DNA from: Antitrichia curtipendula
Taxonomy: Eukaryota; Streptophyta; Bryopsida; Hypnales; Leucodontaceae
DNA length: 64,000 nucleotides
Direction of reading: 5' to 3'
NCBI GenBank assembly: GCA_951230915.1
Contig: OX579638.1
Location: forward strand, 3,986,696 to 4,050,695
Shown: positions 11,238 to 45,404 of the stretch, piece after piece
How the letters are laid out: every line of letters begins with the position of its first letter
How positions within the stretch are numbered: the first letter of the stretch is position 1
The notes under the pieces: model-generated
The model's database searches: none
What the model was told of the DNA's origin: nothing
What the model saw: the letters and a program-made list of their open reading frames with translations, nothing else
Translations under genes and position numbers: made by a program

Positions 11238-11795
11238 AGGGAGTTCACTTAGAGTATCCATTAGAAATCACGTGCAAACAAAACTTTGGACCCCCTATTT
11301 ACTTTTTGAATTTTAAATAAAACAAAATAAAAAAATTATTAATAGATTTTCTTACTTTAAGAGTTTATATTTTGAATTATTGATTGTTTTATTTGTTAAT
11401 GATAATTAGTTACAAATTTTTGAAGTAAAAAGATACATTGTAGAACTGAAAAATAACTTTCACACCTCTATATTATATAAGAAAAAATTGTCTAAAAGAA
11501 GAACAAAAAATTCCTAAAAATAACTCTCTATTGAAAGTTCATTTTGAGTTGAATATTGATTCAATGGTCATCTAAATGTGTTCTCTATAATTATTTTAGT
11601 TGAAAAGCATGCCATTTTAATTCAATTTCTACCTCTTCTAGAAATCATTTCATATTTTATTTGAGTTGGAAATTTTGGCAATAGAAACCTATAGTCATTA
11701 TTAATCAATGCTCAAAATTTTAGGTTGGAATTATAGTTTATTAGAAACCACTTGTTTGCACGTGGTTTGTTGTAGTAGAACTAAGTACACCCCCC
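11238..11795 (-). mobile_element. ~0.55 kb non-autonomous element, GGGGTGCACTTAG family, copy A
   Basis: One of three related copies (others 36652-37205 and 48533-49074), here in reverse orientation. The ends are short imperfect inverted repeats (about GGGGTGCACTTAG against GGGGGTTCACTTAG). Just inside lie a CAAACAAGTGGTTTCTAATA block at one end and a CCAAAGTTTTG block at the other. There is no coding capacity and no convincing target-site duplication. Confidence 0.65.
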
Positions 11796-13973: not shown

Positions 13974-15266
13974 AATCCCCCGATGTTTTCCTCTATATCA
14001 GGAGATTTCCCCATGTATGATGGGGTTGCATGCATCAAGTTTTGCAGTCGTTACTACTGCATGAACTGCTTTGTCTGTATAGAAATGACTCGAATTCTTC
14101 AGACATTGCTCGATAATTACTGTGCAGAAGTTTGCACTACTGGATTGGGAGAAATCCGACCAAGGTATCCAATATTTGAGGATCCCATTAGCAGTAGAAC
14201 GACGTCCCAAAAAGTATCGAGAGATCTCCCGATGAAAAGTGCTTGAAGCAAATATAGCTCCCATCACCCATATGAATCCCTATCTCAATTCTTGTGGTAC
14301 AATGCGAGTGCTATACTTACAGTCCTCCAAAACAGTATATGATTCACAAGAAGACATGATGTAAGAGATTGTCTCAAAGAGTAGGAGATGATTACATAAT
14401 TATCAAATGAGGATTTCTTCTTAGGGAAAATGCCCGTAGTCATGATTTCAACGTGAGATCCCCCGATAGAGTACTAACATCGTCAAGCAATGTAATCATC
14501 TATAACAAAGTGATGCTTTGTGATTAAATGCCAACACTCACCGTATATTATTAACCACTCATTCACGCGGAGGTCCACGACTGCGTTCGTAGTTAGAATC
14601 CGTTTTGCAGCAAATGTACATCATGGCTGACCTCCAGTGGTACACCAGGAGATCCTCCGATGAAATTTGTAGGAAGGCAATTGGAGGAGTGTGTAAAGAC
14701 TAAGACATTGCCAATCTGACTCCAGATGAATAATGGCAAGCATATTGTTCCATCAAAAATAGTAACAGATTGTGTGAAAGGAACATGGAGTCTCTCTCAC
14801 TACTAGAAATGGTCTCTACCTGGTTGCCTACTTCTTGAGACTAAAGATCAAGAAATCCATGAAAGCAGAATTCCCTCGTTCACTAAATGTGAGAGGAAAT
14901 AAATTGCAGACACAGATTAATACTGAAGCACGCATAATCCAAGCACTGCACTTTCAATCTGATACAAACATGAACCACATGCAATGCAACACATCAGAGA
15001 AAGCCGAAGCCACACTTCAGGTATAATCAAAATTATCCTAAGTTGCATGCAGAGATTAAACTGCAGCATACCGAAATAGATGTTTTCATTATGCCGACAT
15101 ACGGTATTACATGTCACAGACAACAGCTGCAAAAAAACGGTGTCTACAAGCAGTCATACTCAAACACAGAAGTACAACTCTTGACTGCGCTAAGTGGTTG
15201 GAGATTTCATCAGGAGATCTCACGATGGCGGCATGGCCCGTAGAAAGGATCAGAAGATCCCCCGAT
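13974..15266. repeat. Palindrome cluster I (five copies plus decayed ones)
   Basis: Copies at 14216-14233 (ATCGAGAGATCTCCCGAT), 14450-14467, 14644-14661, 15209-15226 (ATCAGGAGATCTCACGAT) and 15249-15266. Decayed copies lie at 13974-13985 (half-site) and 13997-14014. The cluster sits just beyond the 3' end of the minus-strand DUF7869-like gene. The open frames crossing it show no domain. Confidence 0.85.
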
Positions 15267-17315
15267 GATCGGAAAGATCCGAACAGGGGAGTCCATCAAG
15301 GGTCAACCTCGTTTGCCCGATTCAAATTTACTAAGGCAGCCTCCCTACTCTTCTTTGGAATTGTCCGTGACTTTGGATCTACTATCTTGGACCAGTTCGA
15401 ATACACAACACAAGTAGCATCCACCCATTCCGGGGCCCTTCTCTCAACAACCCACTTACCCTCCCAGCAATTCCGGTACCTCAATTCCATGGTACTCTCC
15501 GATTATCCGGTCGCCAATACTGTATCAAGAACTTCCCATTATTTGCATCTCCATTGACTTTGCATACGGCAGATAGTGCTCTTCCTTGCCATACAACACA
15601 GATTGCTGGGTTTTTGGGTCTCAGAAGTACCCATGACCCTAGGCGTATGTCAAGCTAGGGATTGAAGCTTTCCAGAGGCGCTTCATTTGCAGGGCCGCAG
15701 TAAGGTTCGAGATCCTCCTCCTCCGGAATCACATCGAAGGGATTCCCAGTGAACCCCGCGAGAGGTCCTTCAGTGCGAGGCACCCTCCAATCGTGCTTCG
15801 GCCAGAAACCCTCCACTAATTCAGCAGCACATTCAGGTAATGGTTCCTTCAACTCGATCAGCACGCGCTTCCAATATTCCACGTATGGACTGAACGCCGT
15901 CGCAAATCCGTCGCATTTGGACATTCCGTTCTGCCAATACTGAATGTACTTCTCTAGGCCTATTAGCATGAATTCCTTATTCACGGTTGCCTTTCGTGCC
16001 ATTTCCTTAGCCTTCTCTTGATTTCCCGTTGGTTTAGGAACCTCACTGCCCCACATTGGCTTGAATGGAACAGGCTTTGGAAACCCATGAGGGAGCATTG
16101 GCCGACCATTGCGGTCTCGCTTCCAAAGGCGGGTTGACGGCTTATCAGATGGTAGCCACTTTGAGTCCACTGCTGACTTCTTATATTTCATGACTGGGAC
16201 TCCATCACTATCCACGTAGAACTTGAAAAGATGCATCTCCCCTAGTCCAATTAGTCTAGCGGAGCCATTGCTCTGGTAACCCTTTATGAACGACTTGAAG
16301 TCCCCCACTTCCTGTATGAACTCCGGCATAAATGACAGTTTCTGAGATTGTATGAACGCCTTCATGAGGTCCGCGACAACAAAAGTGTTTTTGCTCTTCA
16401 AGGCCTTCGAGAGATGGCTGAAATATGCATCGATGTCTTCATGAGTGTGTCCCACAAGCAGAAAACCAACTTGAATTTCTTTAAAGACACCTCGTGCAGT
16501 CAGCAGGGACAAGAACGCCATGAGGTACTGGTTCTTGTTATCCTTAGCAGAGTTGTCAAGCTGAAGATACAAATTTCGGGGAAGAGGAGTGGAGCCGACC
16601 CGAGCTCCTGGTTCAACAAGGGTTAAGCTGTCCAAACATCTAGACTTCCCCCTCAGAAGAGCCTCAAACATCGGATTAGCCGGCGGATACGGGAACAGGT
16701 CGCCTGTCTCTCGAATCGGTGGACCCTCCAACCGGCGCAACAGTCTGGCCAGCGACGAAATTGTGAAGTTGGAATCTCCTAGCCAGCAAGACGGAGCATA
16801 ATGGGCGTAAGCCCCATCAGCATGACCATGGGCTACCATACCAGTAACGCTAAGTGGAAGTTGTCCCAACCCCGCCGTGGCCTTCGTGGTCACCCGCATT
16901 CTTGGTAAAGCCGTCTTGGCTGTATCCATCTTGTCGTGAATTATACACAATATCTCCTGAGGGTTTTGTTTGGATTCCTCACGCCAAGACGCATACAGTC
17001 GACGGCAAGAAGCTTGGTGATTGAAATGTTCAGTGCGTTGCTTCATGAACTCCACATATTGAGGGCACCCCTTCGGTGATTTCAGAAGAAATTGCTGAAG
17101 CTGGTCGCATGTGTTACACTTTGCAAACGAACTTCCAACATGCTTAATATAAACATTGTTGAAGTGCTCCTTCCTCAATCTACTGATAGTGGACTGACTG
17201 ACAGGAGGAAGTCCGTAGTCCGCATTGAGCTGCACAAGAAAGAGAATCGCACATTAGCCTGGGTACAACTGACAATGAAGAACTGCAAAGTTGAACATCC
17301 AACATCCAAGAGAAC

Positions 17316-17333
17316 ATCGTGAGATTACACGAT
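17316..17333. repeat. Palindrome copy inside the DUF7869-like gene's intron
   Basis: ATCGTGAGATTACACGAT, one central change from the best copy, lies in the 167-bp intron 17230-17396. It occupies about a tenth of the intron yet leaves both splice sites intact. Confidence 0.85.
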
Positions 17334-18294
17334 GATCACAGCCTATGGTAGAAAATCACAATCAGCCATGCATTGAGCAATGAGTAAGACAAATACCTCG
17401 TTGGCATCTGCCTAGACACGTTTCCAGTTTCGTCCCGCAGGCAAGAACTTCAGCGTGTCCACTTGCCCGTTCTTGATTCCACGCATTTGATGGGGCATTT
17501 GGTCCGCGTTCTCGTCTATGATGGATTTCATAGCTCCAGTGACCTGGACAGTTCGAATCCGTGGGCACTTAACGCCCTTGTTTCCGTGCGTTCCCGATAC
17601 AGTGCCCTCGTTATACTTCTCTATGTAACTATGGTATGTCGACTTCGGGATACCGTGAATTATGTACCATGCCGTGGCACAAACCTCCATCCCCATTAAT
17701 GTGACGAATTTTCTCTTCCGATTCCCGTCAAGCTCATGAAGTTGTCCTCCGACAGAGATGCCATACTCGCGGCGGTCCTCAAATGCCTTCAAGTAGTATT
17801 TCTACCTCACAAGGAGTGTCTGGAACTGGTTGAAGTGCTGGCAACATAAACGATTGCAGCATTTCGACAAGGTGACCTCCCGAATCTCATTGTCAGTAGT
17901 TTTCCGATCGTATAGTGAATCCGTCACGTCCAAACATGGCTTACGAACTACGAATCGATACGGAGCTTTCATTCTGCCGCCGAGATAAGCTAGAGGGTCG
18001 TCCAAGTCCGGAACTACTGCAAAATGATGCACGGTCTCCTCCAAGGACCGACCATTCGGGAACCAGCACTCAGACAGTGGCCACCGAGCGTGAGACATAA
18101 CATCCTCTTCATTCCCCACAAAAACCTCGCGGATTGTCACACCCACGTGGTCCTCACCAAGTGTTTCATCCTGAAAATGATCATCCGGCCTCCAACTGAA
18201 TATTCGACCCAATGACAATACGACACCGCTCGAGTCTTTCCGATGCACATCTAGACCCCACCAGGCTCCCTGTCGAATATACGAACGTGCATCC

Positions 18295-18312
18295 ATCGGG
18301 GGATCTCCTGAT
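18295..18312. repeat. Palindrome copy inside a DUF7869-like gene exon
   Basis: ATCGGGGGATCTCCTGAT on the plus strand. In the minus-strand reading frame it encodes SSGDPPM at about residue 125 of the first part of the protein. The phase is the same as in the two exonic copies at 29724 and 30042. Confidence 0.85.
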
Positions 18313-18959
18313 GATCTGACGACGTCGGCGGCTCTCCACAGAACTATCCGTTCTTGAGCGTCCCCCAAAAATCTCACCCCTATCTGAACGGGTGCGCACC
18401 TTAAACCTTGAAATTCGGGTTTGATAGACTGCGCCCAAACTAAAATGTAAGTCCACGGCTCCAACGGGATGGGCATACCAAGCCACTGACCCTCTGGACG
18501 AACCTCCTTTACCATCCCTGCTCCAACTTCACCAAAGCCATAAGCAAACAGCCTAACCCAATCACCATTGGCGAATGGTTCAGGTGCACCACTGGAGGCA
18601 TGCGATTCACCATGCACGCCTGATCCTTCAAAATGAGGAATTATCGCACCAGCATTCGAATGACGCGTTGAGACCATCATGAACGGTGAACTTCTTGAAA
18701 AAGGGAAAACTGGTGGAGCACAATTATCTGCGAATAGGATGAAGGCTAGACAGAGTTAGGCAGGGCAGGGACATAATTCATAGCACTTGCCCAGTACAGG
18801 ATACGACATCTGCCCAAACATTTTGAATCATGTGAAAGCAGATATGCTAATCAAGGCGCAAAACATATGGAAACCATCTCATTATAGTCAAGGTCATGCA
18901 ATGCAACATCACCTTGTGATCAGAAGATGAATGGTCATTATCAACCATTTGTTTTCCTC

Positions 18960-19585
18960 ATCAGGAGATCTCACGATGTATGTACTAAGAGAACTAGGGA
19001 TGGTTCCTTTTGTAACCAAGCGATATTGTCGCTTGCATTATTTGGAATCGCGCTAAGCATTACACGTACATGATTCCAAACTAGGCACCATTTGATGCCC
19101 CTAACATGGATGTAGACTACCATCCCCGGAAAATGGTATCATGTAACTTCATAATACGACTGACACGAGATCCTCTGCCGGAGCTATCAAGTCATCCATG
19201 GATAAGACGATAGAGAAACCTCAGGATTCATCTATCGTGCGATCCCACGATTTCCCATTTCTCAAAATACTTGGTGAAAACTATAAGTTGCAGCCCAAGA
19301 TTAACTATCGTGAGATCCCCTGATCCAACTCTGAACCAAAAGCTCCGACTGCCAAATGTCGTAATGTAGACAACGTGAGATCCCACGATACCTCCATGAA
19401 AACGGAGGACACAATAGGCTGCACCACAAGTTAATCTATGTAGAGGTCTCCTGTTCCAAATCTGAAGGGAAGCCCCAGAACTCCTGTCGTGGGATCCCAT
19501 GATGTAGACATCGCAAGATCCTGCAATAACTACACGTAATAGGGATTGTCGAACAGCCTAGCAAACTATCGTGGGATCACACGAT
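18960..19585. repeat. Palindrome cluster II (seven copies) upstream of the DUF7869-like gene
   Basis: Copies at 18960-18977, 19234-19251, 19307-19324, 19372-19389, 19486-19503, 19510-19527 (weak) and 19568-19585, with further decayed ones near 19161 and 19437. Neighbouring copies are only 24-270 bp apart, the densest run in the block. It begins about 280 bp upstream of the DUF7869-like ATG, where promoter or replication-type sites would be expected. Confidence 0.85.
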
Positions 19586-19694
19586 AGTCATTCTGTACAT
19601 TCAAACATACGTATACGTATGCCGTGGATACAAGACATCATATACATACAACATTGTCGTCTCCATATTACATGATCGTTGTGTCCACGTACAC

Positions 19695-20260
19695 CTAGAC
19701 CTCTGTTCCATCCTTCTCAGGTGCTGAATCTTGATCTAATCCGGCTGCAGTCGAGAACAATGGACAAACTAAATGCAGCCTCTGCTCTTCCCGGATCTTA
19801 TCCCTCTCTCTCTCCGCAGATGCCTGTTTCTCATCTGAGGAACAGCTGGGTCGTCTAGAGCGAAGCGAAATCATTGAAGCAATCATGAGCAATGAAATTG
19901 GAAGTCTTGGTAGCATACCTTGCAACGACTGGATCAGTTGAGAGCCTTCTATGCCAGCAACAAGAGGAAATGGCACTAGCAAGCAGCACGACTTGCTCAC
20001 TCCAAAGCCTCCACAGCTTAATCAAGTGCAGAAAAGAGAAAGCTTCAGGTTCCTCAAAGCTTATGACTGAACTGGGTTGGGATTCTCGAACTCCGAATTC
20101 CCTCCTTGACATTTTGAAATGGAGGCGCGTTCCTTCATTTCGGATGTTGGATGCGTTCTTGAATGTCGCGCCGCATTCAACAAGGCGCTGGATTACGTGC
20201 TGCCGTTTCCCGCTTATGTTGACCGATCTTTCCATATCCGCGCGGCCCTGACAACATGAA
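19695..20260 (-). other. Unrecognised gene or gene fragment
   Basis: A minus-strand open frame from an ATG at 20235 runs 126 residues. Its start (NISGKRQHVIQRLVECG) resembles the second half of a SAP DNA-binding motif, but the match is short. A possible donor (GCAAG|GTATGC, about 19920) precedes a charged segment in another frame (SSDEKQASAERERDKIREEQ) that ends at a TAG at 19695-19697, so a spliced protein is possible. A plus-strand frame (19892-20251) overlaps it and has no motif. The segment is GC-richer than its surroundings and lies between the two gene sets of the palindrome block. I do not assign a function. Confidence 0.25.
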
Positions 20261-20936
20261 GGGAGGGCGTGCGTCTCTTGATTTCCTGCCAGAAAATTTA
20301 GAATTCGAATCTTGACCGGTCTTTCAAATCCTCACTGACATGTGGAATTTCGTTGCATTCAAAGATGGCATCGTTGCAAGGGACTCTGAGGGTCAATGAT
20401 ACTTTCAGCAAAGCGAACCTAGCTTTGAACACTGTCAGTTTCTCAGTGAGCTAAGGAATCCCGAATTCATATTCGACGCTTTGCCATTTGCAGATCAATT
20501 TATTGTCCTAAGATAATTCTTCATGAAAGAAGCATGAGAAATATATGCCATGACAGCAAGGAACTCACAATTCTCCAAAAAAATAAAAAAATAAAAAAAT
20601 AAAAAAATAAAAAAATAAAAAAACTCAAAACATTGAAAATAGTAATAAAATTTAAATGAAGATAAGCTAAAAATGTAAATGAAAAAAAAAAAATGAAAAA
20701 AATAGAATATCAAAAAAATGCAGAAAGTACAAAACGTACGGGTTCATTAATATTCATTTCAAATACATATGCTAGAGTTGGCACTAGTTTTGCTAGATAA
20801 ATACTGGGGGTTAGTTTTTATTTCTAATAGCAAATTTCAAACCGTCTTGTATTAATGTATTAACTATCTATTATTAATGTAATAAAAAAAAATTCCTTAG
20901 CATTTTTATGGATAAGGATTTCAGAATTCAGCGTTC
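20261..20936. other. Intergenic with AAAAAAT tandem
   Basis: Contains about seven tandem units of AAAAAAT/AAATAAA at 20576-20625 and other A-rich tracts. The phenylalanine-rich minus-strand frame across it is an artefact. No palindrome copies were found here. Confidence 0.6.
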
Positions 20937-21090
20937 TTAGGGTTTAGGGTTTCTTTAGGGTTTTAGGGTTTTAGGGTTTAGGGTTTAGGGGGGGGAGGGT
21001 TTTCAGGGTTTTAGGGTTATTTAGGGTTCAAGGGCTTTAGGGCTTAGGGTTTAGGGTTTAGATTAAAGTGAATTTAAGGGTTTAGGGTTT
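20937..21090. repeat. Interstitial telomere-like array (TTTAGGG)
   Basis: About fourteen perfect or slightly altered units of the plant telomere heptamer, including TTAGGGTTTAGGG runs, interrupted by a G-run and by variants such as TTTTAGGG. It lies in the AT-rich, palindrome-free middle of the 20 kb block. Such arrays can mark a repaired double-strand break or a former chromosome end. Confidence 0.9.
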
Positions 21091-22812
21091 CAATATCTTA
21101 TGCTGCAAGGTTCACGGTCTTCGATTTTAGGGTTCACAATCTTAGTTTTTTGGTTCCTTTGCTTTAGAGTTATAGGTTTATATTGTCCACAATAGTAGGA
21201 TTTCAAACATCAAGATAATATAAAATTGGAGGGTGTTTTTTGGCAGTGAAAGTAGTAAATTTAGACGGTATTTTTATACCAATCATTTGTTTATCTTAAT
21301 TAGAAAATGTCGAATCGAGGAATGCTCTTAATATAAATTATGATTTCACAAAACTGAAGGGCTATAAGTGCCCACATCTTGCAAAACAATTTGAACCATT
21401 GATATTGAAGTGTAATTTATGTTCATGTTTTTAATTCAAATTACATTGACTAATGGTTAGCTTTCAATAATTTATGTGATCATGTTGTTTAGGAGCGATC
21501 GTGGCTTAGACAACCTTTGTGTTGATTTTTCTCTCCATTGAATTTGATGTTGAGTTACATTGTTATTTAATAATGGTGTCCCTAGTTGTTGTTTTCCTAA
21601 ATGCAAGCCTTTAATTTGAAACAAGGACATTCAACCTATGTCTCAAGTTTATGCAAACTTTAATTTTAAATGTTTTCTACAACAAGGTTCTATAATTCGT
21701 AATTGAAGATATCAAAAGTAATTGTTTCAGTTTGTATGCAAGTACAACTACCACATATGTAACTAGTAGGCAATATACACAAATTTTTAAATTTTGAATT
21801 GAATTGTAGAATAATCATTAGATAGATTTCTTTAGGCACTCTCAAAAAAACTTAGTATCAAATGAAGAACAGAGGCATGGAATCTATTGAATTCCCCCAA
21901 AACTATTGCGCACCATAAAATTGAAATTGATGTCATATACTAGCAGTTATATTTTTAATTCACGTAAGCTGGCAAAAGGCTGCAAATGTTTGGCGTTCCG
22001 TAGCTTTGCTAAGTTTATAAATTATTAAAATGAAAACGAGGAATTCAGGAAAATCATGTACCAGATGACCAATATATAGAGTGCCACTTCAAATAGTAGT
22101 TGGATGTTCATTTTAAAAAAGAAAAAATAGGAGCAAAACGGGTTTACTTAGAAGAGTTTGTTAGTTGCATGGAGTGCAACTGAGTGAAACAACTTTTTGT
22201 AACGTTTAAATCCTTCTGCAATGGGCACTTCTTCTTAAGCACCATATTTGGGAACTCTAAATTCTTCACCGAAGTTTCTAACTTTCAGTCGGAAGTGGTG
22301 GGAAAAAAAATTAGAGCTGAAAAAAAATTAAAGAGAAAAAAATATAAGAGTAAAATGGCATATGGTAAATTTATGGCAATTGAAGATTGCAATTAATGTA
22401 TGCCCCCTTTTGCTAGTGTTAAATACAAATAACCTTTTATGTTTTTGTAAGCTGAACTTGTTAGAAAAATTAAATAGTTACACTATCATTGTGAAGATTG
22501 GAGTAATAAATCATGTCATGTCAAATGAATGGAAATTATCTCACGTGGATTAGCACTTACTGAATTTATGATGTATCATGGCACATCATTGCAAGCCATA
22601 TGATTGCGTATGATGTATAGGTAAATGATTTTTTATGATGTATACTAAAAGCATGGATTTCATTTTGAAATTATGATTCACAACAATTACCAAAATTTTA
22701 CTACAAGTACATTTAATTTATGCACATGAATTACATGATTTTAATTTACATAGATTATCTTCATTTCCAGCAAGTGATGATTGTGGCAGTATTTTGTAGC
22801 AATGAATATTCG
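21091..22812. other. Intergenic, AT-rich, nothing recognised
   Basis: No gene, RNA gene or palindrome copy seen. Short open frames (22184-22396, 22362-22553) are lysine- or asparagine-rich and without motifs. Confidence 0.5.
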
Positions 22813-22960
22813 TTTTGACCTGAAATTGACATAAAACCTTTGAGATTTGACCTAATTTTGAAAGGTTTTATTGCAATTTAGGACGAATTGACATAAATTG
22901 CAAGAAAACCTTTCAAAATTGGGTCAAATCTCAAACGTTTTATGTCAATTCAGGTCAAAA
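22813..22960. repeat. Near-perfect 148-nt hairpin
   Basis: An arm of about 65 nt (22813-22880, starting TTTTGACCTGAAATTGACAT) is followed by a loop of about 13 nt and its reverse complement (22894-22960, ending ATGTCAATTCAGGTCAAAA). Only a few bulges or mismatches interrupt the stem. A transcript from either strand would form one long stem, so it could be a young MIRNA-like or siRNA hairpin, or a foldback MITE. No protein is implied. Confidence 0.85.
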
Positions 22961-23846
22961 CTCGACTTCAATTGCATTAAAACCCTTTCACCGAATTTTT
23001 TAAATTTATCTTTCATTTCAATGGAAAACTCTCATTTGAATGAATATGGTGTTCATGGAAGAAAGGCCTTTGAACTTCGCTAACCTTATAGCGTTTTGCT
23101 GAATTGCAAGTATTCCTAATAAAACATGATCCAATTTAGGTTGTATGATTGTAATAATTGATTCATTTTGTGATTATTACTCTAAGTTATAAGATGTAAG
23201 ATGCTCACGATCCAATTTGGATTAGACAAAGTGACCTACTCTCAACCAGGGTGGTCAATTTTTTAACGTTCTGAAAATGTGACGAAGTAACATCTAATAA
23301 AGTTGTTAAGATTTTGCACTAGGAAAAATAGGTATTCCTATATATTGGAAATAGGACAAATGACAATGTACACTTCCTTTTTTTTTAACTAATTCTAATC
23401 TTGATGGAAAATTAACCAGAAGAAAACATTCGTAGTGTTTTCAATTTCTTAACTGTAGGAAATAATCCTTCGCAATGTTGTTGAACTGGACATTTGATAC
23501 ATTGCTTAGGGTGTCAAAAATAATTGACATACTTTAATTCAATTACGAACTAATTAGTTAACCTTTTCTTTACTTTTATCTTGGTTGTACACACACGGAT
23601 AGTACACATCATGTTCTAAGCAAGTATTTGTTATATAAAAAAGAAAGTAGTTCTAAAACTTATTGGAAAAGAGTGTTCATCAATTTAAATTTGAATAGTT
23701 AGTAGTAAGTTAAATAAATTTTGATTAGACCTCCGTCCTCTACAGGAGCCAGAAAATCTCATGATATGTATTTCATGGATTTTATAAAAATCTCATGATG
23801 TGGATTTTAATAAAGGGAGTTCCTTGATGAATTTTGGTCATGATGA
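22961..23846. other. Intergenic; half-sites of the palindrome at its end
   Basis: AT-rich, no gene. Two partial, decayed palindrome halves (AAAATCTCATGAT) occur at about 23752-23765 and 23787-23799, just before the GC-rich start of the next gene. Confidence 0.45.
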
Positions 23847-24731
23847 CCCTGTACATCCGCCGCCGGTCTTCCGCCTCGCCCTGTCCGCTCGCGCCACGTG
23901 GCCTCTATCGCCTCCGGATGGTTTTCTCTTTCCCCCGATGAGAGTTTTGCTGCCTCCCGTTGTTTTCTCTCCCGATACTCTTCCTTTCCCCAACCTCACG
24001 CTGTTTTCTCTCCCGATGTTCCAGTCTTCGATCCTGATCCTTTGCGTTTTGTGCCGCTGGTCTTCCGGAGTGGACAACTTCCCTTGTCGTTAGTGAGTGG
24101 AACTCGGCGTTGTTGGCGGCGAGGCGCGTCCGACATTGGAGGATTGCTGGAGCTGCAGGACATTGGAACTACTCCGGGAGCGCGTCCGACCTTGGAGGAG
24201 TTGGAGCAAATAGTACCTGCTTTGCGACGTGCAGCGGGCTTGAAAGAGTTGTTGCGCAGGTGAGTCAATGTCTCCGTTTGAGTGTCCCCACTTGCTCGCT
24301 TTTGGAAATGCATCACGGGATTTTTGTTTTGTGCGTTGAGAACAATTGTGCTGTTAGCTTGTGCTATCTTGTTGGTAGCTTTGACATTGTGGACGTTGGA
24401 CGGCATGTAGATGTTATTAGTAGTTTCATTGAGTTTCGGAGAAATGCTACTCGCTTCCGTTCAAATTTGTCCCACCTCGTTCTTGTGCTCACTGGCGTGC
24501 AAGTTTAAGCTGTATCCATTGCGGTTCTTTGAGTTTGATACATAGTTCAAATTTATGGCTTCCTGATGTTGATCTTTGCCGTCATGTATCAGGAGTTGAG
24601 GCTGCGATTCGTACATTGAAGGTTGCTTTGTGGCCTTGACCACGTTGAAGACGAAGCATGGCAGGACCGTCATCACAACGCAGCGGAGGCCTTCCAATTT
24701 GGAATGACAGGTAAATTCCTCTGAACCGTAT

Positions 24732-25521
24732 GTCGTGAGATCTCACCATACTACCATTACAAAGTTTTAGACAAGAACAGCAGAGGTTTTAGAATTAGCA
24801 GATTGAAGAATGCACGATAATTACAGGTCTGTAGTTCAGAACCCACGGTTTTAAGGTTGTTAAAACCCTGTAACCGCGCATCGTGGCGTGGCATCAACCA
24901 GAGAAATGCATAAGGGGTCAGCCCTATCAGGAGATCCCACGATGAAGTATCCATTAGAGTAGTCCGACTGGGAAATTTGGGACAGTTAATCTGCATTGGA
25001 TGTCCTGTTAATGATTGTATTCACATTCAAATCATCGTGAGATCCCTTGATAACCAAGAGACATCAAAGAAATGAAGGAAATAAGATACTCAATAAGCTG
25101 AAAAAGCAACCGCATAACCGTAAAATCTCACTCCTGAGACTGAAGCTGTAGAATAAAAGAGAGATTACCGTGAGATCTCACGATAACGGATCATGAGTGG
25201 TATCCCAGAACACCAAAGCTTATTGTAGTCTGCCCAACCGGAGCTGCTCCCCTTATAGTGATTGCATCATATGATCCCCTGATAAGCAAGGTAGACCAAC
25301 AGATCATGAATAATAAGTAGTTCAGTCTAAACCCTAAACCCGGATGTGTGAGTGAGGACACATCGTGAGATCTCACGATGACGACCAGTAATAGTCTAGC
25401 ATCGTGAGATCCCCTGATGATGTTCACGTAGGAACTCTCCAGTTCCATTCGAAGCCGCAGTGTCGTAATAATCTGTCATAGAAGCCCTACTGTATAAGCA
25501 GACATTGTGTGATCTCACGAT
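24732..25521. repeat. Palindrome cluster III (eight copies) in intron 1 of the ParB-like gene
   Basis: Copies at 24732-24749, 24926-24943, 25033-25050, 25167-25184, 25266-25283, 25362-25379 (perfect ATCGTGAGATCTCACGAT), 25401-25418 and 25504-25521. Spacing is 39-194 bp. They lie between the proposed exon 1 donor and the exon 2 acceptor, or upstream of the gene if exon 1 is wrong. Confidence 0.9.
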
Positions 25522-26975
25522 GATTCCAGATGTGGACCTGCTATGATGACACTCTAATCTAACACTTCGTATGATATGAAATGCTGCAGTGGTGCACAGA
25601 TGCAGGACATTCCTGAGGACTTGAGCCCAAGGAAGCTTGCAGCCTTTGTCGACTGCTGGATACATTCCTTCGAGTACATCGGAGAGCACAATCCGGCGGA
25701 AGTTTTCCGATGCAACCTCAGCGTCACGGAGTGGTGGCTGGAGTTCGTGATAGAGGAAGGCAAGGCTCTCATCGTCCCGATGTTGAGACATCTCGACAGG
25801 GTGCACAAACCAGCTGGGCTAAACGTCACGGAGATGCAGGGCCTTGATGGGCATACAGTTCTTGTCGTTGTGGAGGAAAAGATACCGAAGAGTGACCAGT
25901 TCATCACCTACGGCTTAATCCTGGACTACGCTAAGCTCAACATGACGAAGTGCAAGTCCATGACAGACAGATCCTTGCTGTTCTGTAGAAGCACCTCATC
26001 ACCCCATTGGAGTGTGGCTGAAATGAAATCTTAGTGGGATTTGATTGACGAGGATCGGATCGACGTTGGAGCTCCCGAGCGTCCAGTTGTTCACGGTACT
26101 CCTACCAAACCATCTCCGAAGAAGAAGGCCAAGAAGCGCAAGTCAGTTGCCGGAGCTCCAGGTGACAAAAAGGTGGTAGAAGAAGCCACATCATCTGGGA
26201 AAAAGCGAAAGGTAGGGACCGAGTTATCTATTCACGTGTGCGTGAATATGGAAGAGAGCGAAATCAAGAAGCTGACAAGGGAGGACATGACTAAGATGAA
26301 GAAGTTGTATGACACCCATTTCACGGACTTGTACCGATGGGGGAAGAAACCATTCTGCAACGTGGCCAGAAATCCCATCCGCGTACACTACGATTGCCTG
26401 CACGAGGCTCCCCCCGGAATTCTCGTGTACAGAGGGATAGAGCAAAGCCGCCTTGAAGGGATCACGAACAAGGCCAGAATCGCACCTGACTTCGACTCAG
26501 ATAATAGAGTTATAACGGTGCTCCCTGTCGAGCGCGATCCTTATGGGGACAAGAAGAAGGCCGACTTCTACAAAGAGGAGCCCAACAATGCGGTTTTCAG
26601 CACAAAGACTCAGTACTTCATTATAGGGGGACAACACACTATGAGGGCGTACAGGAATCTGGTGAAAGACGGCGAGATAGCAGAGGCGGACAGGAAGTTA
26701 GCGACGACATTCAACATAGTACCCATCTTCGCCAAGAAGGAGAACTTCGATAACATGTTGTTGCTTTCACGGGCCCTCAACCAAAATCTTGCTGGCGAAC
26801 AGAAAGAGCAGTGCTTCACGAAGCAACTAATCAACGCCAGGATCAAATGGAGAGACATGGGCAGCCCGCAACCAGCACTCTTCGGCAGGCACCACGACAA
26901 GAAGTACCTGGTATGAGTGATGTCAAATGCCCTCATTTGGTCGGTCCACTGCTAAATGCAGTCTTCATTCTCAAT

Positions 26976-28910
26976 ATCGTGGGATCCCCTGATGCTAATG
27001 TAGCTCTCAATCTAGGATCATGAGTTCGCTTACTCTAGAATGAAATGTCCACTTCGATTGTCGAAATACACGGTGACTTCCTCCAAAATAGTATATCATC
27101 GTGAGATCCCCTGATGCTTCAATGCTGTACACGGTCCTGTACTAATAGTCCCGTTGTGTTTCTGGTCTTGAGCAGGCATTTCATCCGTCCCTTGTAACAA
27201 TCTTCACGGGTCAGAAGCCGAAAGACAACAAGGAGCTGCGGATTCCACTTGCCTTTCTCGAGGACGACAAGGATGTTGACAGATGGATTAAAATCGAGGA
27301 GAAGTACATGACAGGGTTGCTGCCGGACACCGCAGGGTCAGTCAATGAGATCGGATCTCTGAAGCGCAAGCCCCTTACTGCAAACGATTTCAAGACGTTG
27401 TATGGGCTTCGAGCGGAAGACATCAACTACCTTGCGACTCTCGTGGAAGAGAAAATAATTTCCGTGAAGAGCGGCAAGGTCAAGACCCCGAAATCCCTCA
27501 CAACTCTTGCTTCGGCAGGCGCCAAGGAGCGCCTCATTCGGGGGATGAAGAACGAGTTGATGCTTCACTATAGGAAGCATCCACTACCCAGCAAGAAGCC
27601 GGAGTACGAACCATACTCCCCAACGGAGTGGGACAACTTCGCGAAGGAGAAGGGAATAGATCGCGAGCAAGTAGAGCTTTGGGTGAACAAAGCCATGGAT
27701 TCGCATTCCGGATCGAAGTGGCTGCTGGATCGCACAGCGGGGCTTAACAAGACGATCGACCCGGCTGACTGTCCGCAATTTGTGCGGGACATGTGGGAGG
27801 CGTACTTCAGTTCGACGGCGACCATTGGAGTGGAGGAGGCGCTTGAGAAGGGGTACTCCGAGAACTACATGTGCAGAGTCTTGGACGACCACTCCGGGAA
27901 TCTCAGCAGTGTTCTGAGGAACCCCGACGTCGTTTCTTGGCGGGATGGAAGTAAGCCGCACATGTACTTCTGGTTTCTCTTTGAGTAGACGGATTTGGGA
28001 TCACGGGCAAAACTTCTGGAGGATCGAAGACTGAGACTATTCTTCGACGCTTTGGAGTGCTACGACCCATTCACGAAGCTTATCACAGCCCGGTCTGCCG
28101 CCGTACTCCTTACTGATGCAGAGGGATACCACATGCTGTGTCTTCATTTGGAGAAGAGAAGACGTGAAAACGGCAACACTAGAGTATGGGACCTGCACCT
28201 CGTCAATTACATGACGGCACCAGAGGACGGATTCCCGGAGGCTGTCGCCGGGGAGGGCTTCAACGTCTTCGTTGTGTTCTGCTTCGGGTACAACAAGGAA
28301 TATGGTTCGCAATTGTCGTTCAAAACGTTCTTCCCGGGAGAATCTAAAAAGATGAAGCAAGTGTACAGGTCCAAAGAGCATCGGGATGACTTCACATATT
28401 GGAGACGGCAGAATGTACCGTACTTGAAGATTTCGACGGCCATGATCATCTTCTTCGAGCACGTATATGGCGACCTTATCCTCGTCAACATTAACGGTGG
28501 ACCAGAGTTTACATTCCTAGGAATGGTACGCAACTGATTGTCCCTCTCCTTTTCATCGCCTTCCAATATTATGTTGATCCCATAAACTAGCAGATACTGA
28601 CGTACTCTTCTTCCCCATCTGCTGTAGAGTGCCAAAGTGAAAGTCCTCGAAGTTGTGAAATCCGCGGAGGCTGCATATGAAAGTCAAGCCTTTGCGAGAC
28701 AAATGTGGGACCACTTCCACTTGAAGCCGAAGCCACTGTCTGAGCACCAAGTACTGAACGACGAGGAGCAGGACTCGGATGAGGAGGAAGAAGCGTACAA
28801 GGAATTGGACAATTCCGGTGAACGAGAACATGAAGGAGGAACCGGATTATTGCAGGGGAACAATAAGGTCAGTGTACACTTCTTGTTGAGCCATTGTGAG
28901 ATCTCCGGAT
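26976..28910. repeat. Palindrome copies in introns 2 and 4 of the ParB-like gene
   Basis: Copies at 26976-26993 and 27098-27115 lie in intron 2 (26911-27175), and one at 28893-28910 (ATTGTGAGATCTCCGGAT) lies in intron 4 (28868-28965). The 102-bp intron 3 has none. Confidence 0.85.
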
Positions 28911-29723
28911 GCCTGGCAGCGCACATCAATGATATACGCTATCCCAATGGCTTACTGATTTCCAGTGTCGTTGGCATGTTCCGACGCAGGAGGACTTTCC
29001 GCGAGGAAGGGGGCAGACGGGTGACTTCGAGACTCCGCCTTTGGTCAACAAGATAGAAAAGGAAGTTCGTCCAGCGCGGGAGAGCGGGAGGGAAAGGCAT
29101 GGGGAGGGAGTTCGGGATTCACCAGCTGGTTCAGGTGCTGCTCGTCACTATAGTGAGTTGGAGGACGACGCTGCGGACGCGGCGCTTACTGACAAGAGAA
29201 AACTCCGTAAGAAAGCCGTCAAAAACTCTTCGAAGTCAGTCAGAGGTCCAGAGCAGTCGACGCAGGAGAAGCGGAAAAAACCAGAAATCAAGAAGAAGCT
29301 TTCTGATGTTCTGGAGAAGGTGAAGGACAAGGTAATCGTTAAGAAGAAGAGCAAGAGCACCGCAGTGCTAGTGGCGGAGAAGTTCCTGGAGGACGGAATC
29401 ACCTCGTCACCTGACGTGGAAGTGATTGAGAAGGACCGGTTTGTTCGTCACTCAGATCCTGAGATGGTGGCAACCGGAAATCAACAGGGCAAGGGCTCCG
29501 GCGACGATGCAGTGGATTCGCCGTCACCGGAAGCGTCGAAAGCCGCGAAGACACTTGTTTCCTGCGCCTCTTGACCGTCACATTTAGAGTCCGCCGACGA
29601 TACACTCTCGGGTGCTGAGCACCCTCAGATGTCTGATGCGGAGCAGGGAAATGGAGAGGGTCCGATCGTTCAGTCACCTGTGAAGGAGGCAGGACGACCG
29701 CAGGAGGAAGTTGCCCAGCCGTC

Positions 29724-30059
29724 ATCGGGGGATCTCACGATGGCACAGGAGGACCCGGTTGTCGTTAGGCAAGACGGTCAGTCACCTAGCCCTGCACTTG
29801 GCTGCACGCTGGAGCTTTCCGGCATACATGAAGAGGTGAATCAGTTGAGGATTGGAGAGTCTGAGCTACTATCGAGTCCTGCAAGTGAGACACGGATCCC
29901 AGGGAAGGAGGAATCAGAACTTGCAACCGGCACTTTGGTATCGGGTGAGATGCTAAAGGAGACACCGGTTATCTCCCATGACTATGTTACTTCTAGATGT
30001 AAGGGGAAGGGTATAAAGACGGTGGAGGAGAACCTTCCTTCATCGAGGGATCCCACGAT
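29724..30059. repeat. Two palindrome copies inside exon 5
   Basis: 29724-29741 (ATCGGGGGATCTCACGAT, encoding SSGDLTM) and 30042-30059 (ATCGAGGGATCCCACGAT, encoding SSRDPTI). Both are read in the same phase as the exonic copy at 18295. In that phase the canonical ATCGTGAG would place TGA in frame; both copies carry bases that avoid it. Confidence 0.85.
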
Positions 30060-30610
30060 AGTACCTTTGGAAAAGCGCGTGCAGGTGGACATGAGTGTTG
30101 ACGTTCGAAGGGATGCTATGACGGATTTGGACTTATTCAGTCCCGTATCAGGTAGGGACTCGTCGAGGCTTGAGGAGGCATTTGTAGTAAACATCGCCCT
30201 CAAGGCAGCAGGTGAGGTTGCTCGAGAAAGCGATACAAGTGTGGACACGGGGGTTTTGGATGCCTTGCCCTTAGATGGGGCAGAGGTTCTGAAGGTCAAC
30301 AATTTTGATGTGTTCAAGGAGTTATGTCATTTCTTGAGTCTAAATTCATACCCCAATCGACGACTAGATAATCCGAAGTCAAAGCATCTGGAAGCCGTAA
30401 GGCAAGCAAATCGTTTCATATACAAAGAGGTGTTTAACTGGAATCTTGAACAGGGGGCGCCGTCACAAGATGCTTTGAAAGTACCGGAGAGCGATGCGCC
30501 GAAGCAGAGGGGAAATGAGACGGAAGACGTCACAGGTGCTTGAGTGCTCTACTATTTCATTGTATCATATTTTGTTTTAAAGCTATGTCTCCTGAATTGA
30601 CTCTAACTAC

Positions 30611-31288
30611 ATGTTTCTTTTGTCTTTTGCAAAGCTTGGAATGCCTTCCTTGCTTGTGGCGAGTTCATCGAGAGAGGTAGTTTTCAGACGGTACTCTGTG
30701 GTCCTTGACCTCAATGGGCTTCTTCTTCACAGATCCTTTGATGATCGTAATCGACGCAAGATTGTACCCCGTCCGGGTGTTGTAGAGTTCCTTGACTGGT
30801 TGCGTAGACATGCAGCCGTTGCGTTCTGGAGCAGCGCTTTGAGCCGGAATGTGAGGTCTCTACTGGATACCCTTCTACGGCCCACCTCATTTAAAGCAGC
30901 GGACGTCATTGTTCTCTCGCAGGAGGATTGCAGGGTGTCGTCCTTTAGAGACCGCAACAATCCGGATAGGCCCTACTTCCTGAAGGATCTGACCACCTTC
31001 GCCACAATCGCGAATTTGAATTCCTTAGACAATGTTCTTCTAATTGATGACAGTCCGATTAAGAACCTCCTGAATGATCCATGCACCGCCGTTCATCCGA
31101 AAACATGGGCCGGTGATCTGAGGGACTACTTCTTGGAGGGGCAGTTGAAGCCATGGCTTCAAGATCTGTTTCAGTCAAACGAGAGTGTTGTCTCCTACGT
31201 CTTGAACCATCCACTTCCGGGTGGTCAGAGGTCGGAGATTAAGTTTTCCAGGCTGGCGAAGAGTATTCTGGGCGGAATTCCTAAATAG
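30611..31288 (+). CDS. FCP1/SCP-type HAD phosphatase-like protein
   Basis: 225 residues from an ATG at 30611, or the last exon of the upstream gene, since AAAG|CTTGG at 30634 is a plausible acceptor. HAD motif I reads VVLDLNGLLLHR: the nucleophile Asp is present, but the usual second Asp of DxD is Asn, a change that would be expected to weaken or abolish phosphatase chemistry. Motif II is FWSSALSRNV, and motif III/IV includes NVLLIDDSPIKN with the acidic pair. The spacing fits the FCP1 homology domain (NIF family), whose members act on the RNA polymerase II CTD or other phosphoproteins. The open frame is intact, unlike its neighbours, and ends in TAG. Domain assignment is good; activity and substrate are unknown. 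Confidence 0.7.
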   Translation: MFLLSFAKLGMPSLLVASSSREVVFRRYSVVLDLNGLLLHRSFDDRNRRKIVPRPGVVEFLDWLRRHAAVAFWSSALSRNVRSLLDTLLRPTSFKAADVIVLSQEDCRVSSFRDRNNPDRPYFLKDLTTFATIANLNSLDNVLLIDDSPIKNLLNDPCTAVHPKTWAGDLRDYFLEGQLKPWLQDLFQSNESVVSYVLNHPLPGGQRSEIKFSRLAKSILGGIPK

Positions 31289-31316
31289 GGCTGTTTTTTC
31301 ATACTCGGTAGGCGTT

Positions 31317-33560
31317 ATCAGGAGATCTCACGATGATATCTGGGACTTCTTTATAAGTAGAGATAGTGGGTGTCACAATATTGGTAGAACAGACTATAAT
31401 CATAGTAAATGTATCTTCTGTAACTGACTTCGACGCTTATGTTCATAACAGAGAAACTGGTTGACCTTATAAATTTACTTGTAATCTTCATAGTAATGCG
31501 ATCATCGTGATATCTCACGATGCTTTCTTTTACTTCAATGTTGTTGTAGTCGAATACCAAGTTGTTCTTGTTCTCTCTTTAAAGTACTCTATTTTCCGTC
31601 CCTTCTGTGAGTTACTGTTTTCTAATGTCTGTAATCGATATGATGGGAATTTCCAGCGAATTCGCTAATGTGGTTGTTTATTTCTTAGTATGGCCGTCTG
31701 TTTTCCATGATCCTGTAATATGTAAATTATAATCCTTCGGGCAGACTCAATTTGTTAAATTTGCGTAGTTTTAGGATTTTCTTGGAAGAAATGTAGATGT
31801 CTGATTTGTCTCACAAATGCTCTCCGTTTTATGAGTCCTTCATTATGTTTTTGTCAGATACTTCATTTACGCTCTCGGTATTCTATTACCCCTCTACCTT
31901 CTTTGGAATAATTTTAATCGTATTTGAATTGTGGTAAGTTGGGGCCCCTAGCCTTCCCACTGTTGACTCTTCATCAGGAGATCTCCCGTTACATGATTCC
32001 TTATACATGTCATATCTTTATTCTGAGTGCGTATGGTATCATTGTTTTGTTTCTTATTTCTTTCGCTTAGAATTTGTTCTTACAATATATATTTTTTTTT
32101 CTTACCAACTTATTTGTCCATCAGTAATATGGACACTGGTTCAGTTCGCTTTTGCATAAATTCTTCGGATGTTTTTTTGTAATAAGCTCGTCCATTACCT
32201 CATCCGGAGATCTCCTGATGTTCGATAATTCTGCTTTTCGGGTACAGGTGTATTACTCTTTTACAGTCTGCATCACGAGATTTTACGATACGAATCTTCA
32301 TGGTTTACCTCAGTCCGAATTCTTTTCCTCTGAGTCTACCACCACATGTGGAGGTAGTTTTTTAGTTCATTTTAGTTTATGAATGATCTACATTCTCCAT
32401 AAGCAGTTCACTTAAGAATGGAGCCCTACTTCTCTCGATCATCTCGGAATTACTTTGAACCGATGGGAGCATAATTACACAAGTCTCACATTTTTCCCAA
32501 AGCTTCTGGGGTCGTCGGAAGTACGAATTGTTTTCTGCGTTCTTCTTTATAATTTTATTAGTAAATCGGAATGCTTGATTACTGCAGTTCATGGAACACT
32601 GATCCCTTGTTCGGGTATGCTACAGACAGTTTCATAGGATATATTCCATCAGGAGATCTCTCGATAATTAAGGTCAAATTTCCTTTCATTATAGGTATTG
32701 TGTCCTTGACTATGGGCGGGTGTTGTTCTCTGCAGGCGGTGGTGATCCGGGTACTCACGGGTGCTCTCTGCAGTGGCGATTCTCCTTCAGATCTCCAGAT
32801 TAATGTGAAGACATTATCACGCTTCGAGGCGTTCATTAGTCTTCTGCTGACAACGACTTCCGTTTTCCTCTGGTCGAATATGCATTGGTCGTCATTGAAA
32901 GAGATTCTTGCACGTTTTCTTCCACAAAAACTTATTTCGAGGTTATGGCGGATAACTTGTGGATGTGATTTACATTGCAAGTTGCAACTGCATCATCCTC
33001 ATCGTCGACATGTATTGAAGACCCTCGTTAGTGATCCTCATGCCAAGGAGGTACTTAGGAATCGAACGGTTCATTTCCTTGATATAGATCCTATGAACAT
33101 GCGGATGCATTTAATCCCCCCGGTCATACATGTTAGAGATGACCCCAATTACTTGTATAGTAGACTCTGAAATGCAAGCTAATTTCATATTCATTTCAGA
33201 GGCGCACGCCTAAGTATGCTTTGGTGTATCTTTATGAATGAATTGTGGTGATTTCACCTTACTTCACTATACAATTGTCTCTATTTTGCAGAAATCTCTC
33301 TATTTGCATGCATTGAACATGTCATCCTATATGCCTGTATAATGCTATGGGAATTTCATCTGGAGATCTCTTGATCTCCAATTCCCAATTTCAGTGATGG
33401 ATTTCATACCTCCATTTTGTTGTGGATCTCAATGCTTCTAACGAAATAAACATGTAGACATGTTAGCATTTGAATTCACAATATTTACACATGGTCTGCA
33501 ATTTCCAGAAGTAAATTTGTGGACAAGTATTTCAATCTCTACATCATGAAATCCCTAGAT
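31317..33560. repeat. Palindrome cluster IV (eight copies) after the HAD-like gene
   Basis: Copies at 31317-31334, 31504-31521, 31973-31990, 32202-32219, 32272-32289, 32648-32665, 33358-33375 and 33543-33560, with a decayed one at 33731-33748. They flank the second HAD-like fragment and grow weaker towards the right limit of the block. Confidence 0.85.
32736..33170 (+). pseudogene. Second HAD/FCP1-like fragment, motif I missing
   Basis: An open frame after a good acceptor (TTCTCTGCAG|GCGGTG at 32735/32736) runs 144 residues to a TGA. It parallels the C-terminal two thirds of the HAD-like gene 1.5 kb upstream: RFEAFISLLLTTTSVFLWSN corresponds to motif II (EFLDWLRR...FWSS), and NRTVHFLDIDPMNM corresponds to the acidic motif. 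The N-terminal DxD motif is not visible, so either an upstream exon is undetected or the gene is truncated. Similarity to the upstream gene is at the level of motifs only, so tandem origin is tentative. Confidence 0.4.
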
Positions 33561-34628
33561 GATGGATTTGTTTCAATGAATAAAACAGCAAAAAACGCAC
33601 CCTAAACGCTTACAATGCCAAAGCGTGTTCTGTTATATGGCTTTTAATATACATATGTGCTCAATTACCTATTATCCTAGCTACTTTCAACATCATGACG
33701 ATGATTTTTTCCATAATGTCGGTTGTAATCATCATGGGATATCTTCCAAAAAGTCCGAAATTGGGCCCAAAGTCCAAAAGTAGTTAAATAGGGCATTTTC
33801 TAAATGAGCTTCAGTTTTGTTTTAATCTCCTTCTTTCCTTCACTAATTGTATTATAAGTCAAAGCTTTGTCGTCTCTTGGGTGTTTGGCAAAGTTCTAGA
33901 TACTTCTAAAACATTCAAAGTCAAAATTCTACAGTCTCTTGATTCACTTTTCAAACTCTAACAATTCCTATAATGTCTAAGTTCAAAGCTTTGCCATATG
34001 GGAAGAAATACATAAAGTATTAGATAAATCTAGACAAGGAAAAGTTAGTAAAACTTGTTCGTACAATAACCAACTCTTATACAACATGTGTTAGTATGAA
34101 CAAATAAACGTCAAAATAAACATAACTTTGTTAGTATATCCCAATACACAGCTTCTAGGAAAAAATTTACTGAAAGATTTTCCATTTAAAAATATGCAAA
34201 ACTCAACATGTGCTAGAGGTCCCTCAAAGCAACATCACCAAGGTACGATGGAGGGTGTGCTCTAGGATTTGTACAACAACAAGATTCAAATAAAAACTCA
34301 AATAAAAACAAACAAGTTAGTAACAAGAACTTGCAACAATTGCATACAATAACAAACTTTGAAGGGACCCCAATGTCCTTTGAAGGGAGCTTAAAAAAAC
34401 AAAAACAAAGCATGAAAGGCTTCTAAAACAATCGTTTAAGTAATTTACCTTACAAATGATCAAACTCAATTAAATGAATCCAACAAAGTACAAGTGCCAA
34501 AAAATGGCTACAAAGGGGTTAGAAGGGATGTTTTGAGAAGAGTAGGGATGCCCTTATATAATCTTTCAAAAGCACCACCTCCTCTCATTTTCAAACAATA
34601 ATCTTATCATCTAAGATTTTCATCTTAA
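33561..34628. other. Right margin of the palindrome block and intergenic sequence
   Basis: After the last palindrome copies the sequence becomes ordinary AT-rich DNA. No gene, terminal repeat or target-site duplication marking a right end was identified. Confidence 0.45.
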
Positions 34629-36651: not shown

Positions 36652-37205
36652 AGGTGCACTTAATTCTACTACAACAAACCACGTGCAAACAAGTGGTTTC
36701 TAATAAACTATAATTTCAACCTAAAATTTTGAGCATTGTTTAATAATGACTATAGGTTTCTATTCCCAAAATTTCCAACTCAAATAAAATATGAAATGAT
36801 TTCTAGAAGAGGTTGAAAATGAACTAAAATGACATGTTTTTCAACTAAAATAATTATAGAGAACACATTTAGATGACCATTGAATCAATATTCAACTCAA
36901 AATGAACTTTCAATAGAGAGTTATTTTTAGGAATTTTTTGTTCTTTTTTAGACAATTTTTTCTTATATAATATAGAGGTGTGAAAGTTATTTTTTAGTTC
37001 TATAGTGTATTTTTTTACTTCAAAAATTTGTAACTAATAATTATTAAGAAATAAAAATATCAATAATTCAAAACATAAACTTTCAAAGTAGAAAAATCTA
37101 TTCATATTTTTTTTTTTAATTTTAATTTAAAATTCAAAAAGTATATAGGGGGTCCAAAGTTTTGTTCGCACGTGGTTTATAATGAATACTCTAAGTGATC
37201 CCTCC
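36652..37205 (+). mobile_element. ~0.55 kb element, GGGGTGCACTTAG family, copy B
   Basis: Same termini and interior as copies at 11238-11795 (reversed) and 48533-49074. It starts GAGGTGCACTTAATTC and ends CTCTAAGTGATCCCTCC. Divergence from the other copies is visible as scattered substitutions, so the insertions are not recent. Confidence 0.65.
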
Positions 37206-45151: not shown

Positions 45152-45404
45152 CGCGCACTTGCAAGACGTCGAGGAAGTTGAATCCCCCAATATATTGGAT
45201 GAATGCAATTCAATTGGGCTGTTGTCAAGGAATCAGTGATCGAACTGGAATGCGCAGAATTTGGACTTCAGAGAATCTGCCTTGACTTGAGAAGTGTTGG
45301 TGTGAGATCGAGATCGAGATCGAGGGGGTCACTTGAGTTAGCTGATGCGTCCTTGATTGAGACTTGCTCTGTGAAGTGATGAGAAGTGCGGAGGGCTCAC
45401 CAGG

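Follow-up and report, generated by a model that had tools for sequence, protein, structure and literature searches.

Introduction

The closest described counterparts of the locus presented here are giant transposons of the alga Ectocarpus, for which ParB-like genes have been published together with the suggestion, in the accessible part of the report, that their products bind the transposon's own DNA. In bacteria, as far as the accessible text of the papers goes, the OB sites of KorB lie near promoters or up to more than 1 kb upstream, and parS and NBS represent a switched specificity of sister proteins (PMC11790492, PMC7383237); the P motif of ParB, GxxR, is located in Box II (PMC12704722, accessible part). 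In plants, self-recognition of transposons and evasion of silencing have been detailed for few elements, the case that we found being VANC of Arabidopsis. Here we analyzed a stretch of 64,000 nucleotides (hereafter the window) of the moss Antitrichia curtipendula (assembly GCA_951230915.1, contig OX579638.1, positions 3,986,696 to 4,050,695), containing a giant, provisionally Sola-like transposon in which copies of an 18-bp palindrome, here named M1, are dispersed. The Ectocarpus paper was the sole relevant report on ParB in transposons, or on Sola and ParB, found in the open-licence literature searched; that literature yielded neither a published cognate site or site swap for transposon ParB-like proteins, nor a matching report of dispersed palindromes in transposons, nor any mention of DUF7869, a domain encoded by the moss element.

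M1 is dense in one 20-kb block of the window

For the detection of M1, a symmetric matrix was derived from the window and applied with cut-offs of 9 and 12 bits; its consensus is the 18-bp palindrome ATCRKGRGATCYCMYGAT. Between 13.97 and 33.56 kb the matrix gives 38 matches above 9 bits and 36 above 12 bits, compared with a mean of 0.36 at the 12-bit cut-off, and never more than 3, in 200 dinucleotide shuffles of the block. The density reported for this block by an earlier, sequence-only reading of the window is therefore borne out. Its statement that the other 44 kb lack M1 is nearly right, the exception being a single match at position 47724 (13.9 bits), and the claimed confinement to one block holds within the window but not genome-wide, where M1 recurs in other transposon copies.

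The half-sites ATCGTGAG and ATCAGGAG flanking a central GATC are real, and they combine freely. When sites of three elements were pooled, the two halves were of the same type in 43 of 101, against 38.7 +/- 4.6 after shuffling, contrary to the proposal that they vary in concert; perfect palindromes accounted for 3 of the 101. Spacing is mostly irregular, as had been described, apart from local 24-, 28- and 36-bp runs in related subfamilies. A CRISPR-like or tandem array was rejected as a general rule for the palindromes; the subfamily sub25 does have a 28-bp run containing its palindrome. No known RNA family was found at gathering thresholds.

The block is a single transposon of a genome-wide family

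The block is one copy of a DNA transposon with terminal inverted repeats (TIRs), 19,879 bp long (13918-33796; Table 1). Neither this transposon nor the sister lineage with a different palindrome described below had been recognized in the sequence-only reading. The element has two divergent genes, the left one on the minus strand with DUF7869, the right one on the plus strand and ending in a NIF/FCP-type phosphatase domain; that the right-hand exons constitute one gene is our reading.

The genome searched comprises 400 Mb. The TIR pattern ATGCC[AC]TATTTAACTACTTTTGGACT, allowing up to 2 mismatches, was found at 808 + 840 places (control 0), and a 241-bp miniature inverted-repeat transposable element (MITE) with the element's ends has at least 40 full-length matches (40 scored among 851 candidates). 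Perfect 4-bp target duplications flank all twelve 241-bp MITEs checked base by base, and a 247-bp MITE and the window copy retain three of the four bases each. One M1 site above 14 bits is present in each of these twelve MITEs and in one 247-bp MITE, a biased count because the MITEs were traced to the palindrome or to relatives of such MITEs (4 of the 12 were found via the palindrome, the other 8 via similarity to one of those). According to the accessible part of the source, Sola elements make 4-bp duplications, have TIRs, occasionally exceed 15 kb and are known in a moss, and Ginger elements make duplications of 4-6 bp and have longer TIRs (PMC10741241). The perfect duplications of the twelve MITEs fit Sola, although this length is not Sola-specific given the range of Ginger, and the TIRs agree over 26 of 26 bp. 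We provisionally classify the family, on these sequence features, as giant (~20 kb) Sola-like cut-and-paste transposons.

With up to 2 mismatches, M1 occurs at 2034 places in the genome, versus 4 for the reversed control. Twenty stretches with exact M1, representing 19 loci, were inspected: 12 are copies belonging to the window's own subfamily, with 93-98% identity over the main pieces, 1 is a diverged relative (L016), 4 are clean MITEs, 2 are truncated (L008 and L009, by eye short relatives of the 247-bp MITE) and none is unrelated.

M1 sites are constrained across subfamilies

In two diverged subfamilies, sub16 (C2) and sub26 (C9), the right-gene exons have 30-65% protein identity to the window and the noncoding DNA is mostly unalignable. 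The window matrix finds 34 M1 sites in each of them (shuffles 0.3-0.4), both being scanned as 20-kb stretches whose right ends were not located. The coding mask takes up 41% of the element, yet only 3 of the 36 sites of the window element lie wholly inside it (P 1.3e-5). The coding palindrome at 18295 recurs at the corresponding codon of two other M1 subfamilies and is missing, without a gap, in elements with the second palindrome (M2, below) and in the M1 element L031.

When 13 copies of the window's subfamily were compared (mean cover 6 copies, 1-3 at the end sites), no M1 site was deleted in any covering copy; the site at 33543 scores just 10 bits in the single other copy covering it. Changes at A/T positions affected 6 of 1712 cells within M1 sites versus 631 of 44,287 in other noncoding DNA (Fisher P 2e-5), the cells being non-independent, the sites chosen by score and the copies fetched via an exact M1 site. 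Judged by these comparisons, M1 sites are under constraint across subfamilies.

A sister lineage has a different palindrome at matching positions

The subfamily sub25 (C8) shares the genes of the element, its DUF7869 being 84% and its ParB-like right-gene exon 49% identical to the window, and contains no M1 site in 20 kb. Unbiased word counting in sub25 revealed another 18-bp palindrome, M2 (ATCTGGAKYRMTCCAGAT). At a cut-off of 14 bits, the M2 matrix detects 31 sites in sub25 and 2 in the window but leaves sub16 and sub26 empty, and M2 with up to 2 mismatches is found at 395 + 422 places genome-wide (control 6 + 9). The positions of M2 in the sub25 lineage match those of M1 elsewhere.

Five further elements were sampled over 4.5 kb upstream of the DUF7869 exon, with M1/M2 counts of 6/0 in L031, 0/10 in both L030 and L032, 0/12 in L034 and 0/0 in L033; the last, chosen as a further subfamily, was excluded from the motif comparison because a nested insertion of long-terminal-repeat type in the intron fills its stretch. 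Upstream and intron regions were compared in 10 elements, three of them from the window's subfamily. All ten have 6-11 sites of their own type within ~860 bp upstream of the N-terminal exon of the left gene, and all ten have at least one own-type site in the same left-gene intron (a weak one of 13 bits in L031), the rest of which is poorly alignable.

For the right gene, 72 of 135 rows of ParB-like copies were examined (C1-C4, plus C5 to 27.6 Mb) for exact sites within 3 kb upstream. Copies with at least 62% identity have exact M1 in 26 of 37 cases and M2 in none, and those with 50-56% identity have exact M2 in 6 of 35 and M1 in none. The nearest exact site lies at 656-675 bp for M1 (23 of 26) and at 671-688 bp for M2 (5 of 6). 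DUF7869 has 81 scored genome matches among 1671 candidates. Of the exact places on C1-C4, 16 of 36 for M1 and 18 of 36 for M2 are within 20 kb of one of 38 scored matches (0.7% by chance); conversely, 15 of the 38 matches have exact M1 within that distance, 7 have M2, 1 has both and 15 have neither. The sequence-only reading had raised genomic clustering of M1 with DUF7869-like and ParB-like genes, which is what was observed, and not an even spread. On this sequence evidence, one lineage has exchanged the whole complement of sites for a second palindrome.

Two side observations concern these copies. Seven M2 sites in the sub25 stretch (L027/L025, reverse complement 5658-5843) form a tandem run with 28-bp steps, suggesting that tandem duplication generates some sites. 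Twenty rows on 19 small contigs (e.g., C149, C161, C275, C102) and a further one at C5:23020 are ParB-like copies with nearly the same score, 56% identical to the window and open over 489 aa; they may represent a single subfamily present in a high-copy or tandem array.

Genes and other features of the element

Table 1. Features of the transposon copy, in window coordinates
Feature	Position	Strand	Sites and evidence
Left TIR, 26 bp, starts ATGCC	13918..13943	+	26/26 identity to reverse complement of right end
M1 left-end group	13997..15266		13997, 14216, 14450, 14644, 15209, 15249; weak 13967; matrix scan
Left gene main exon, DUF7869 (PF25273), putative transposase	15655..17253	-	Pfam E 2.8e-43
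M1 in left-gene intron	17316..17333		intron 17254-17411
Left gene N-terminal exon	17412..18755	-	in-frame stop in window copy
M1 in left-gene coding DNA	18295..18312		
M1 cluster upstream of left gene, n=7	18960..19585		18960, 19234, 19307, 19372, 19486, 19510 (weak), 19568; matrix scan
AT-rich central spacer between the divergent genes	19586..24731		no M1 above 12 bits
M1 cluster upstream of right gene, n=8	24732..25521		24732, 24926, 25034, 25167, 25266, 25362 (perfect), 25401, 25504; matrix scan
Right gene first part, predicted ParB-fold domain at ~26350-26850	25558..26916	+	in-frame stop in window copy
M1 in right-gene introns	26976..28910		26976, 27098, 28893; matrix scan, introns by our interpretation
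Right gene further exons, without known domain	27149..30543	+	30-65% identity in diverged subfamilies
M1 pair in right-gene coding DNA	29724..30059		29724, 30042; matrix scan and coding mask
NIF/FCP-type phosphatase domain (PF03031)	30596..31288	+	E 1.2e-16
M1 right-end group	31317..33560		31317, 31504, 31973, 32202, 32272, 32648, 33358, 33543; matrix scan
Right TIR	33771..33796	-	element flanks CTTC / TTTC, 3/4 bases of 4-bp duplication

In 49 aligned DUF7869 sequences, D110, D233/N234, H271, D273 and D275 are near-invariant and H269 is invariant. Several of these near-invariant residues are acidic, the feature that bears on a DDD transposase like those of Sola; a fold comparison that barely probed DUF7869, with Tudor-like N-terminal barrels filling the match list, gave no match for this domain. 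The predicted model of a homologue of the N-terminal exon consists of two small barrels like Tudor/agenet/KOW folds (low specificity). The first part of the right gene has a ParB-CTPase fold in its predicted model. The further right-gene exons gave no Pfam match above cut-off, and no DNA methyltransferase was recognized by Pfam in the right-hand exons scanned. The phosphatase domain is retained in two diverged subfamilies, the stretch of the third not reaching there. A possible exon at ~19855-20331, upstream of the left cluster, is matched weakly and with many stops in two subfamilies, and not at all in a third. Named relatives of the DUF7869 protein among the matches listed come from mosses, liverworts and Chara, with a lancelet near the bottom, and no relatives of either protein were confirmed in viral contigs (9 and 76 pattern matches, none kept).

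The long site-free central spacer is also present in three diverged subfamilies. In the window it contains a degenerate run of TTTAGGG, of plant telomere type (20937-21061), of which only isolated units, 1, 7 and 5 on both strands together, are scattered over the sub16, sub26 and sub25 stretches, and a near-perfect 152-bp self-inverted repeat (22812-22961) that also occurs in 10 of 12 other loci of the same subfamily and is probably an old nested hairpin MITE. Elsewhere in the window, a GC-rich unit of ~2.2 kb with open frames of ~350 codons occurs three times (43520-45745, 52109-54336 and 60271-62606; 98.9% and 91% identical, one inverted), a 0.55-kb repeat also three times (11234-11798, 36646-37203 and 48519-49077; 90-93% identical), and a 95-bp unit in three nearly perfect copies (46323-46609).

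Which protein may recognize the palindromes

Taken together, these data make it rather probable that the dispersed palindromes together form a multi-site target, bound by a dimeric protein which the giant Sola-like element itself encodes. The sequence-only reading had left a choice between a multi-site protein target and a mini-insertion sequence. The former is well supported by the conservation across subfamilies, the coordinated replacement, the clusters upstream of both genes and the avoidance of coding DNA. A palindrome that is itself a tiny mobile insertion would account for short copies that are numerous and nearly identical while their flanks are unrelated; however, the sites occupy identical positions in every covering copy with no deleted state (1-3 copies at the end sites), the coding site at 18295 aligns gap-free to relatives without it, and two lineages have different site sequences in the same intron. 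We rejected this explanation for the sites examined and give it a negligible probability.

The most likely reader of the multi-site target would be the ParB-fold protein of the right-hand gene, which would load at the palindromes in the manner of ParB, Noc and KorB at their own sites, leaving the element marked end to end. The clusters upstream of both genes suggest autoregulation, and the coverage of intron and ends, the subfamily exclusivity and the signs of methylated-cytosine decay in dead copies suggest self-recognition for escaping silencing. The sites may then serve self-recognition, in the form of autoregulation and of shielding the element from host silencing or undoing it, and might also aid transposition of the element and its MITEs. 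A more specific proposal, which we consider less likely than not, is a ParB-parS-like system of a eukaryotic transposon, in which the protein would load at ~35 palindromes, spread, and coat or mark the 20-kb element for self-recognition and anti-silencing, and in which a wholesale site switch, like that from parS to NBS in Noc, would keep co-resident subfamilies from mutual activation.

A number of observations weigh against such a reader and such a role. The ParB-like model has a mean pLDDT of 69.6 and no Foldseek match below E 0.09; the canonical GxxR arginine is present in 0 of 13 aligned sequences, which have IIGGQHT and variants instead; and the search of the right-hand protein yielded no helix-turn-helix (Pfam on the scanned exons, the model covering the ParB-like part only). 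Exclusivity is not absolute, given the two M2-matrix sites in the window, one extra M2-like site above 12 bits in each of L012 and L014, and the one DUF7869 match with both exact palindromes within 20 kb, for which a shared element is not established. No exact site of either type lies within 3 kb of 29 of 35 ParB-like copies in the less similar group and 11 of 37 in the more similar one, diverged valid sites being uncounted. The N-terminal-exon tree accounts for the swap with just one change, so the swap is one natural experiment and a single contrast for either protein; in this exon the M1 element L031 shares 53-59% identity with other M1 and 53-55% with M2 elements. CHG change is the same inside and outside M1 sites (15/242 vs 234/4019) and CG change is modestly lower within them (24/554 vs 282/3943), so sites in dead copies appear without clear protection from methylation.

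The strongest competitor, to which we give slightly less than an even chance, is a VANC-like anti-silencing, in which the sites would serve to remove DNA methylation from copies of the element itself, whichever element protein binds, with site and reader co-evolving. VANDAL and VANC provide parallels in their family-specific, dense short motifs, mainly noncoding and with subfamily-specific changes (PMC5735166, accessible part). The stops in closer DUF7869 copies (at least 89%; 27 of 40 rows with stops) comprise 33 TAG, 15 TGA and 2 TAA, and since this bias matches the decay of methylated cytosine in CAG and CGA, these copies seem to have been methylated; the bias is weaker in diverged copies (27 TAG, 10 TGA, 10 TAA). 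VANC motifs, however, are 9-bp same-orientation tandem arrays, whereas here 18-bp palindromes are mostly dispersed, and M1 sites decay by CHG deamination like the remaining DNA. A reader in the N-terminal part of the DUF7869 protein, the putative transposase, with the palindromes as enhancer or assembly sites of transposition, is unlikely, but less so than a host factor. That exon is only 48-55% identical between M1 and M2 elements, far more diverged than the DUF7869 exon between subfamilies (80-84%), its tree places the M2 rows in one clade, and the MITEs retain one site each. Yet the right-hand exons likewise diverge by motif type, the exon of L031 is almost equally far from both groups, the MITE sample is biased as described, the sites are spread over all of the 20 kb, with their clusters upstream of genes instead of at the ends, and the predicted N-terminal barrels resemble folds that are typically chromatin readers, not a DNA-reading fold. 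We regard as improbable that a host activator or silencer binds sites which the element exploits or cannot escape: it agrees with clusters directly upstream of both genes, but predicts neither the coordinated replacement in a sister subfamily of the same genome nor the retention of sites in the intron and towards the ends, and 19 of 19 exact-site loci inspected lie inside the transposon family.

Comparison with known systems

VANDALs are Mutator-type elements with proteins unrelated to those of the moss element, and in CACTA (En/Spm) elements many short sites of the TNPA protein are confined near the ends. The moss motif, which is concentrated in one transposon family and differs between subfamilies, resembles the family- and subfamily-specific short noncoding motifs of VANDAL/VANC, for which co-evolution with an element protein is proposed; unlike it, those motifs are 9-bp, tandem and non-palindromic (PMC5735166, PMC10398659, accessible parts), and the moss element has only local 24-, 28- and 36-bp runs in place of tandem same-orientation arrays. 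Mutator-type duplications measure 7-12 bp, and CACTA elements have CACTA ends and 3-bp duplications (PMC10741241, accessible part). The moss element differs from the former by its 4-bp duplications and DUF7869, and from the latter by its ATGCC ends and 4-bp duplications; with CACTA it shares giant size, TIRs, a plant host and numerous short protein sites (candidate sites in the moss).

KorB with OB, and Noc and ParB with NBS and parS, are alike in pairing a ParB-fold protein with short palindromic sites; these systems are bacterial, with 16-bp sites and, in the accessible text, canonical GxxR and helix-turn-helix (PMC11790492, PMC7383237). The Ectocarpus transposons agree with the moss element in size, in transposon type (provisional here) and in a ParB-like gene on the strand opposite the transposase. 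Their ParB-like domain is part of a fusion with a DNA methyltransferase, whereas in the moss element a NIF/FCP-type phosphatase domain follows and we recognized no methyltransferase. The accessible part of the Ectocarpus report describes no binding sites; the moss element comes with an explicit candidate site, its layout, many MITEs carrying the element's ends and a site, and a natural site-swap control within one genome, making protein-DNA recognition and its co-evolution directly testable.

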